Part shown: piece by piece, positions 31,004 to 32,503 of the stretch
Layout of the letters: every line of letters begins with the position of its first letter
Position numbering within the stretch: position 1 is the stretch's first letter
NCBI RefSeq assembly: GCF_027158005.1
Contig: NZ_JAPVLQ010000002.1
Coordinates: forward strand, 124,001-188,000
Direction: 5' to 3'
Origin: Rhodococcus sp. H36-A4
GTDB lineage: Bacteria; Actinomycetota; Actinomycetes; Mycobacteriales; Mycobacteriaceae
DNA length: 64,000 nt
Translations under genes and position numbers: made by a program
The notes under the pieces: model-generated
What the model was told of the DNA's origin: nothing
Databases searched by the model: none
Seen by the model: only the letters and a program-made list of their open reading frames with translations

Positions 31004-32254
31004 TCACCAATCCACCCGCGCTGCCATCGCGAGCAATCTCTCTCGACGCGTACTGCTCGTTTCACCGATGCGCGCGATGCGCCCGTACACGTGGGCGCGG
31101 AAATCTGCACTCCCGCTCAGGTTTTGCACATCGGCACCCGTCGTGATGCAGTTGTGGAGCAGCGCGCGCAGGGCGTCGTATTCGGCTCTGGGTACTGCGG
31201 GCCAGTCGTTGACCACCAGCCCGGTCAGTTGTTGTCGCTGATGTGCCCGCCGCACCCGCGTCTTGTCCGGGTGCAGGGCGAAACCCTCGTCCTGTGCGAC
31301 TTGGCCGACCACCCACTGCAGGGTGTCCACGTCTGGGCTACCGGAGAATGCCAGGTCGTCGGCATAACGGGTATATCGCAGCCCCATGGATCGCGCGAGA
31401 CCGGTCAACCGGATATCCAATTGCCGTGCTGCAAGATTGGCCAGTGCCGGTGATGTCGGGGCGCCCTGCGGCAGATGAGTGGATCGCAATCGAGAGGCTG
31501 TCGGCCGGTCGATTCCGACCAATTCGGCCGCGGGCGCCACCGTCGTGCACACGCCTGCAAGATTCGACGCGACAGTCGGGGGATAGCCCACAGCTTCGAA
31601 TATCGCTACGACACGGTCGAATCCGATGGATGGGAAGAAGTTCTTCAGGTCGACTGATACGACAACTTCGCGGCCTGCGTGTGGAATTGCGAAGGTCTGC
31701 GCACTGCGGCCTCGCCGAAATCCGTGCGCAGCAGGGTGCGCGGGCACTCGATCGAGGATCCGCCGTAGGACCTTTCGCTGAATCTCGCGCAATCGTGGCT
31801 TCGGCACTTCCAGGAGCCGCGAGCCGACGCGCTTGTCGATTCGGGCAGAACGATAGTGCTGCATCGGAAACGGCGCTGTCGTCAATCTTCCCTGAAGATC
31901 AGCGAACCAGTCCATTTCGTCGATCGTAAGATCGAGGGACCCTGCAAGTTGACCCGATGTCTCGTAGCGAGGCACCTCGAAACGCCACGGCTTGACGTGG
32001 CCTCCCGGCGGCGGCGCGTGCGAGGACACCGAAGGCTCCGGGATGAACGGCAGGTCGCGCAGGAGGCGGAAGATCGACGACTCGTCGAACGGCGGCATCG
32101 GAAAAAGATTGATCACGCGGTCCGCCAACCATGACGCTCTGGCCGGAACGAGCGCCGCGAATGCCTCCTCGAGTCCGCTACGCGTCCACTCCGCATCCGC
32201 GGACAGGGACGCCAACGCCGCGGCCGATCGCGGCGTCAGTTCTCGGTCGGCCAT
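31004..32254 (-). CDS. ret: Retron-type reverse transcriptase
   Basis: Product of 416 residues. ATG at 32254 is chosen because of the AGGAG site nine bases upstream; the frame stays open further 5' only because it runs through the msr-msd RNA. A 130-residue N-terminal extension is followed by the RT: AHGFRRGRS and the FAIPH equivalent of the retron NAxxH motif (about 188-192), VDLKNFFPSI with catalytic Asp (201-210), LPQGAPTSP (261-269), RYADDLAFSG catalytic YADD (297-300), HPDKTRVRR, and LTGLVVN as the retron VTG motif (343-349). It should reverse transcribe the adjacent RNA into msDNA. The long N-terminus resembles myxobacterial retron RTs. No classical effector is fused. Confidence 0.9.
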   Translation of the reverse strand: MADRELTPRSAAALASLSADAEWTRSGLEEAFAALVPARASWLADRVINLFPMPPFDESSIFRLLRDLPFIPEPSVSSHAPPPGGHVKPWRFEVPRYETSGQLAGSLDLTIDEMDWFADLQGRLTTAPFPMQHYRSARIDKRVGSRLLEVPKPRLREIQRKVLRRILDRVPAHPAAHGFRRGRSAQTFAIPHAGREVVVSVDLKNFFPSIGFDRVVAIFEAVGYPPTVASNLAGVCTTVAPAAELVGIDRPTASRLRSTHLPQGAPTSPALANLAARQLDIRLTGLARSMGLRYTRYADDLAFSGSPDVDTLQWVVGQVAQDEGFALHPDKTRVRRAHQRQQLTGLVVNDWPAVPRAEYDALRALLHNCITTGADVQNLSGSADFRAHVYGRIARIGETSSTRRERLLAMAARVDW

Positions 32255-32274
32255 GCATCTCCTGTAAAAAAACA

Positions 32275-32430
32275 CAGCGGCGCGGGGCGACCGAAATCTT
32301 TCGTCCTCGGAGCAGTCAAGCACGCGGAGCGTGCCGAGCTGCTTCGGACGCAGTGACCGATTCTCATTTCTCTCCCAGGGGTTACCCCTGAGCTTGGTCG
32401 CACGGACCAACTCTCGCCCACGCGCCGCTG
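32275..32430 (-). ncRNA. msr-msd: Retron msr-msd RNA
   Basis: Read on the minus strand. The a1 arm CAGCGGCGCGTGGGCGA (32430-32414) pairs with the a2 arm TCGCCCCGCGCCGCTG (32290-32275) over 16 bp with one bulged T. Directly after a1 come two msr hairpins: TTGGTC/GACCAA with loop CGTGC (extended by GAG/CTC, 32413-32390) and CAGGGG-TAA-CCCCTG (32390-32376). After a 25-base single-stranded stretch comes a long msd hairpin (32350-32302; CGTCC/GGACG base, GCAG/CTGC, GCACGC/GCGTGC top). The RT start codon follows 20 bases after a2. The order a1, msr, msd, a2, RT is the standard retron layout. The branching G is probably one of the Gs just after a1. Confidence 0.82.
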
Positions 32431-32503
32431 CATACCTCCCACTGTGCCAAAAATGTCCGACTTCTGCGCGGTATTCCATCCTCGGCGTTCTGTGTGTCGA
32501 GCG

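Follow-up and report, generated by a model that had tools for sequence, protein, structure and literature searches.

A retron of a little-described, seemingly effectorless kind in Rhodococcus, defined by a covarying msr-msd RNA and its reverse transcriptase

Organization of the locus

We analyzed a 64,000-nucleotide (nt) stretch of Rhodococcus sp. H36-A4 (RefSeq assembly GCF_027158005.1, contig NZ_JAPVLQ010000002.1, positions 124,001 to 188,000), referred to below as the window, for a putative retron on its minus strand. Read 5' to 3' from 32435 to 31004, the locus carries the arm a1, a pair of short hairpins, a hairpin of 49 nt with an inner stem, a second arm a2, a ribosome-binding site and the gene for a reverse transcriptase (RT); the individual features are listed in Table 1. 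The genome holds a single copy of the RT and a single copy of the RNA.

A first-pass annotation, made from the letters of the window alone, had called a complete actinobacterial retron at this position. Its anatomy of the RNA was recovered throughout. The a1 and a2 arms pair with a single bulge (CAGCGGCGCG-T-GGGCGA with TCGCCC-CGCGCCGCTG, 16 Watson-Crick pairs and one bulged T), two compact msr hairpins stand directly 3' of a1, the long msd hairpin measures about 49 nt, and the RT begins about 20 nt past a2 with an ATG at 32254 that is preceded by AGGAG. It had further supposed that gene callers would extend the RT frame through the RNA and thereby hide it. The frame does stay open across the RNA, up to 32479, but among the first 50 homologues just 6 reach a length of 430 amino acids or more, and this expectation was for the most part not borne out.

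Table 1. Features of the retron locus on the minus strand (window coordinates).
Feature	Position	Strand	Basis or remark
Extended -10 promoter box TGGCACAGT	32441..32449	-	5 nt 5' of modelled RNA start
msr-msd RNA, a1/a2-closed, ~165 nt	32435-32271	-	Fold and covariation
a1 arm, 20 bases	32414..32433	-	Fold; covaries with a2
Candidate priming (2'-5' branch) guanosine, first base 3' of the a1/a2 stem, context GAGA	32413	-	Invariance; role by analogy
msr hairpin 1	32393..32411	-	Fold, covariation
msr hairpin 2, core CAGGGG-TAA-CCCCTG	32374..32392	-	Fold, covariation; 100% of cells paired
Reverse-transcribed template, predicted at 83 nt at most	32291..32373	-	Anatomy of the RNA
msd hairpin CGTCC...GGACG, 49 nt	32302..32350	-	Fold; upper stem covaries
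msd tip GCACGC-TCC-GCGTGC; predicted DNA tip d(GC-GGA-GC), GNA mini-hairpin	32320..32334	-	GNA/GNNA rule (PMC4686876)
a2 arm	32272..32290	-	Fold, covariation
AGGAG, ribosome-binding site of the RT	32259..32263	-	Sequence
Retron-type RT, 416 amino acids; N-terminal helical extension (residues 1 to ~87) and RT core with FAIPH, YADD and LTG	31004..32254	-	Frame, homology, predicted structure

The RNA upstream of the RT is conserved and covaries

The minimum-energy fold lengthens the a1/a2 stem to 19 pairs, wobbles included, and the RNA is more stable than all of 200 dinucleotide shuffles (z -5.3). The region preceding the RT was extracted from whole genomes for 49 of 50 family loci, the remaining one being a dropped RT fragment, and the RNA was found in every one of the 49. 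Its most conserved stretches include GGGGTAACCCC in msr hairpin 2, ACTGCGTCCGA at the foot of the msd, GCACGCTCCGCGTGC at the msd tip, and GGTC 5' of a2.

Does the structure hold while the sequence drifts? A plain sequence alignment of 46 loci, with three loci that carry an extra 33-nt insert excluded, kept the 39 consensus pairs at 95.8%, and two-sided changes were found in 21 of them. The covariation score of 0.325, compared to 0.149 in shuffles, was reached by none of 500 shuffles, and sliding the pairing partners lowered pairing to 34-48%. Among 20 loci of other families, in an alignment fitted to the covariance model, two-sided changes occur in 30 of the 39 pairs. The covariance model itself, built from the family alignment, scores the window RNA at 174.8 bits. 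Compensatory changes among homologous loci were the test that the first-pass annotation had set for itself in advance; when run, it revealed strong covariation in a1/a2 and in the hairpins. Rfam returned no family at gathering score in the 64-kb window, and a relaxed search of the locus gave only a chance match outside the RNA.

The RT belongs with retron RTs

By sequence and by predicted fold, the best matches of the RT are retron RTs. The best-scoring PADLOC models are RT_other (2e-172) and RT_outgroup (6e-165), names for which no description of an effector or an RNA was found; the model for retron type XIII (RT_XIII, 3e-94) scores far lower, and RT_VI likewise falls far below RT_other. The announced catalytic motif YADD is present, and 50 relatives have YADD (43) or YGDD (7). 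Of the two other announced motifs, the 'NAxxH-like' one of region X is in fact FAIPH, with the F shared by 48 and the H by all 50 relatives, and the 'VTG-like' one of region Y is LTG, a position at which 29 of the 50 relatives show LAG and 16 show LTG.

N-terminal to the RT core lies an extension (residues 1 to ~87) that is conserved within the genus and predicted with four helices (model pLDDT, the predicted local distance difference test, 66). Used alone, this domain retrieved no fold match in the PDB (7 rows, none below E 6.8); since the model is weak, the missing match is no evidence of a new fold. Three outer relatives of genus g170 (L095, L096 and L111) do without the extension, their RT starting at the residue-86 region straight after the RNA. 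For L095 and L096, the stretch from the RNA to this region holds no usual start codon.

RNA and RT occur together across genera

Within the genus, the RT is present in 32 of 37 genomes and the RNA in the same 32. In the family sample of 201 genomes we found the RT in 64 (threshold 1e-40) and the RNA in 65; the extra RNA genome, G046, has a broken RT directly after the RNA. The order sample yielded the RNA in 29 of 249 genomes. Of 23 RNA genomes outside the family, 20 were fetched for inspection, and each had an RT relative 3' of the RNA, even where the RNA match was weak (E 4e-5). Matches of the covariance model are thus RT-linked in 65/65 family cases and in 20/20 outer cases examined. The class sample contained the RT in only 11 of 296 genomes, which marks this retron family as lineage-restricted. 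Judged from homologue names, its carriers include Rhodococcus, Rhodococcoides, Nocardia, Gordonia, Williamsia, Skermania, Hoyosella, Smaragdicoccus and Nakamurella.

Outside Actinobacteria, two Burkholderia replicons (L113 and L115) encode RT relatives of 46-48% identity, with weak RNA matches (E 0.017 and 0.035) exactly upstream. Phage records contained 6 matches, all distant (~36% identity or less), and plasmid records 10 relatives, none covering 80% of the RT. Among five plasmid relatives that were fetched, the RNA was present together with a family RT in two actinobacterial ones, Tsukamurella 'plasmid 5' (L112) and Dietzia pII (L114). The former may be a chromosomal piece, since it also carries polA and rpsA. 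One of the 32 carriers within the genus, G032, has a disrupted copy (G032:C69 116456-127899), in which 10.5 kb separate the RNA from what is left of the RT, a fragment.

A promoter box precedes the RNA

We searched for a TGN[TC]ANNNT box 3-14 nt before the modelled RNA and at six shifted control positions. The box is present in 44/49 family loci and 5/21 outer loci, all at 3-8 nt, and in 0/70 loci at each of the six shifted positions. Its placement suggests that the transcript likely starts at or beside a1, as expected of a primary msr-msd RNA.

Priming site and predicted DNA tip

A32414 is the last base of the a1/a2 stem. The position that follows it, G32413, holds a G in 46/46 close rows and in all 19 outer rows with a letter at this position. 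Its context is GAGA in the window and GAGC or GAGT in relatives; f59 has CAGG, with the second of its two Gs being the aligned one. Branch guanosines of known retrons are given in the contexts TAGC, CAGA, CAGC, GAGC and ACGC in one published account (PMC6868368). By analogy, G32413 is the likely 2'-5' primer. From the anatomy we infer how priming and copying would proceed: transcription from a promoter of the RNA's own would likely begin at a1, the a1/a2 stem would present G32413, and the RT would copy the msd from just before a2 back toward msr hairpin 2, giving a DNA of at most 83 nt. The predicted template (32373-32291) is consistent with the multicopy single-stranded DNA (msDNA) of 60-90 nt that had been proposed from the sequence at the outset.

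The msd tip follows the pattern GC-UNC-GC in 69 of 70 loci. Its middle base is C in 54, U in 9, G in 4 and A in 2, while the flanking U and C are invariant. Mapped on the RT tree (68 rows with both an RT and such a tip), the middle position requires 11 changes and the flanks 0. We know of no RNA rule that matches this pattern. The DNA copy of UNC is GNA, so that the predicted DNA tip is d(GC-GNA-GC); the exception, L103, has a four-base loop with the DNA copy GGCA, that is, GNNA. Mini-hairpins whose GNA or GNNA loop is closed by two or more G-C pairs are described as exceptionally stable and resistant to nucleases, and GCGAAGC melts at 78 C (PMC4686876). Selection acting on the DNA product would leave such a tip rule, which makes it a suggestive sign rather than proof, since a three-base loop fits U-N-C by chance in about 1/16 of cases. 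A GNA tip would resist heat and nucleases, and the msDNA would then persist as a long-lived, RT-bound particle.

Linkage to dnaE2 and mode of inheritance

A protein resembling Pol III alpha that is encoded beside some of the retrons is the error-prone polymerase DnaE2 (NF004225, 3/3 tested). While dnaE2 is present in all 65 RNA-bearing family genomes, it ends 12-972 nt upstream of the retron RNA, on the same strand, in 17 of them. This linkage is found in 8/8 genomes of genus g10, 6/6 of g18 (at 23-27 nt), 1/1 of g16, 1/1 of g11 and 1/5 of g8; the other nine genera, and with them the genus of the window, have none. Among the outer regions, dnaE2 lies 41-1331 nt before the retron RNA in 5/20. 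One further genome, G110, has it 4.2 kb away on the opposite strand. The dnaE2-linked rows are scattered in the RT tree, requiring at least 4 changes of state. Likely, the linkage is an ancestral position that was later lost, including in the window's genus, and it may mean more than that; repeated gain fits as well. Where dnaE2 is directly upstream, read-through into the retron is possible. LexA/SOS-type boxes were absent from all 70 loci, up to 300 nt before the RNA, and SOS control of the retron through a box of its own is therefore unsupported.

RT and RpoB distances correlate with r 0.72 over 28 genomes and, within the family, with r 0.55 over 22 genomes (0/2000 permutations each). Two exceptions were observed: two RTs of f49 (Nakamurella-type) fall inside the family, and the RTs of genus g23 are split. 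Descent therefore appears to be mainly vertical, with some transfer.

Neighboring genes do not reveal an effector

In the window, the retron is surrounded by genes for a secreted-looking protein without a family, an XRE-cupin regulator, AzlC/AzlD, a phosphotriesterase-like protein and a DUF305 protein. The gene downstream of the retron matches no PADLOC model, and the XRE-cupin gene matches HTH-type PADLOC models only. As candidates for an effector, the XRE-cupin and AzlC genes were rejected as local synteny: they recur in 3 of 28 other regions, where the XRE-cupin gene lies 2.7-7.3 kb from the retron, and are absent from the nearest relative, L072.

When 29 regions (8-16 kb, 12 genera) were compared, none of the protein clusters stayed in a fixed place beside the RT, except dnaE2 in some of the regions. 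Clusters 1, 3 and 4 were dismissed as conserved neighbors because they are mostly open reading frames (ORFs) that overlap the RT itself. Of the clusters that do not overlap the RT, cluster 2 occurs in the most regions (13/29), but it varies in place and strand and was likewise rejected as an effector; its members are short-chain dehydrogenases in 8 of 9 cases scanned, the ninth being without a match. When part of the neighbors was scanned, as 20 ORFs chosen from 14 other regions, none matched a PADLOC model. An adjacent or fused effector, which marks tripartite retron defence of types I-XIII, was thus not recognized in these sequences.

Interpretation

We read the locus, at a probability of roughly 0.87, as a genuine retron by sequence: a retron-type RT directly preceded by a covarying msr-msd RNA. 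This reading is carried by the RNA structure as established through covariation, the homology of the RT, the linkage of RNA and RT, the promoter box and the tip rule. From these we infer that msDNA is produced, and where its branch point and ends would lie, as well as its function. Several observations weigh against the reading. In regions X and Y the family has FAxPH and L[A/T]G in place of NAxxH and VTG, although variants of retron RT motifs are reported as common and VTG is present in only 47% of retron RTs (PMC4244168). The XRE-cupin gene shares the strand of the RNA and stops 68 nt upstream of it, and the HTH of this gene has a match of 1.8e-11 to PADLOC HTH_VI, by name a part of type VI retrons; because the neighborhood is not conserved, we read this as a generic XRE match. 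When the whole predicted complementary DNA is folded as DNA, its stability does not clearly exceed that of shuffles (z -1.46, 15/200 as good). The tips of the two Burkholderia relatives are not GNA, and msr hairpin 2, which remains RNA, also has a conserved loop, which counts against the tip as a signature at the DNA level. Finally, the locus is missing from 5 of the 37 genomes in the genus, and the copies in G006, G032 and G046 look broken, so that the retron is evidently dispensable.

Could the RNA be something other than a template? GC-rich sequence folds easily, but the idea that the a1/a2 match and the hairpins are chance folds is already refuted by covariation far above shuffles and slides; the z-score of the fold also speaks against it, as does a covariance model that picked out RT-linked loci in every family match and every outer match examined. 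Also highly improbable is a role of the RNA as a structured 5' leader controlling RT translation, in place of a template for reverse transcription. Its position immediately 5' of the RT start and its pronounced structure would suit such a leader; however, it has the order and spacing of an a1/a2-closed msr-msd, a1 is followed by an invariant G, the tip obeys a rule known for DNA hairpins, and the RT groups with retron RTs.

The harder question is what the retron does. 'Complete', as the first-pass annotation had it, is apt for the pair of RT and RNA; it is untrue for a tripartite defence system, since no effector was recognized nearby. The most serious competitor, which we nevertheless regard as unlikely, would make this a conventional tripartite anti-phage retron: its effector would lie elsewhere in the genome or belong to an unknown family, and RT-msDNA would hold it inactive until a phage disturbs the particle. 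Retrons typically comprise an RT, an RNA and a toxic effector, as one source puts it (PMC12548924), patchy loss and broken copies suit a defence gene, and PADLOC files the RT under retrons and finds HTH_VI in the upstream gene. On the other side stand the lack of any PADLOC match among the neighboring ORFs scanned, the rarity and distance of the XRE-cupin gene elsewhere together with the low score of RT_VI, and neighbors that are not conserved across genera. Very unlikely, in our estimate, is a single-gene system in which the N-terminal extension acts as the output or partner-binding domain, comparable to retrons with fused effectors: its four predicted, genus-wide conserved helices recall the extended N-termini noted for myxobacterial retron RTs (PMC6868368), but the extension is missing in three outer relatives and, in a model of modest confidence, has no match among solved structures.

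By context, the retron likely works other than by the usual toxin guarding. No effector was recognized beside it, and what is conserved across many genera is confined to RT and RNA; the RT-msDNA particle would therefore act alone or with a protein encoded elsewhere. Most probably it would be a sensor or decoy that stands alone, in DNA metabolism or in defence, not the antitoxin half of a local toxin operon. Some retrons without a clear effector are mentioned in a review (PMC8867640). A bolder proposal, which we hold to be rather improbable, is that of a domesticated effectorless retron, a near-core pair of the mycolic-acid actinobacteria and their relatives since their common ancestor, originally placed behind dnaE2, whose nuclease-proof, GNA-tipped hairpin would serve DNA-damage tolerance and not phage-triggered suicide.

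Relation to known retrons

How does this retron compare to those already characterized? Unlike Retron-Eco1 (Ec86), which has been solved with its effector and carries the motifs NATPH and VTG, the window retron has no recognized effector, its family shows FAxPH and L[A/T]G, and most of its members possess an extra N-terminal helical domain. Likened by description, the myxobacterial Mxa1 (Mx162) and Sau1 (Sa163) combine an extended N-terminus with wide, likely vertical inheritance within a lineage, as here (PMC6868368); the Mxa1 msDNA, however, has 162 nt, versus at most 83 nt predicted here. The same source reports putative retrons in Actinobacteria. We regard the retron as one of a little-described, seemingly effectorless kind, its RNA having been set against Rfam. 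Among the listed titles and abstract openings on retrons in Streptomyces and Actinomycetota, none describes this RNA.

Retrons are now understood mainly as toxin-guarding phage defence units. If our reading is true, a widespread, largely vertical pair of RT and RNA without a recognized toxin would mean that retrons can also serve a different purpose. With the family-wide RNA model such retrons can be found, and the tip rule at the DNA level would offer a sequence-based sign that selection sees the DNA product. A compact native actinobacterial retron could also become a DNA-writing tool in Rhodococcus-type hosts.

Variant copies

Three close relatives, L020 (RNA 1269-1466), L023 (1266-1463) and L025 (1272-1469), carry the extra msr insert of ~33 nt between hairpins 1 and 2. 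At L091 6004-6192 (G046), the msd tip unit GGCTCCGCC is tandemly repeated, and the RT downstream is broken. In the outer relative L093 (6315-8829, minus strand), a long in-frame Pro/Ser-rich insert in the RT precedes the LPQG motif, with the frame remaining open.
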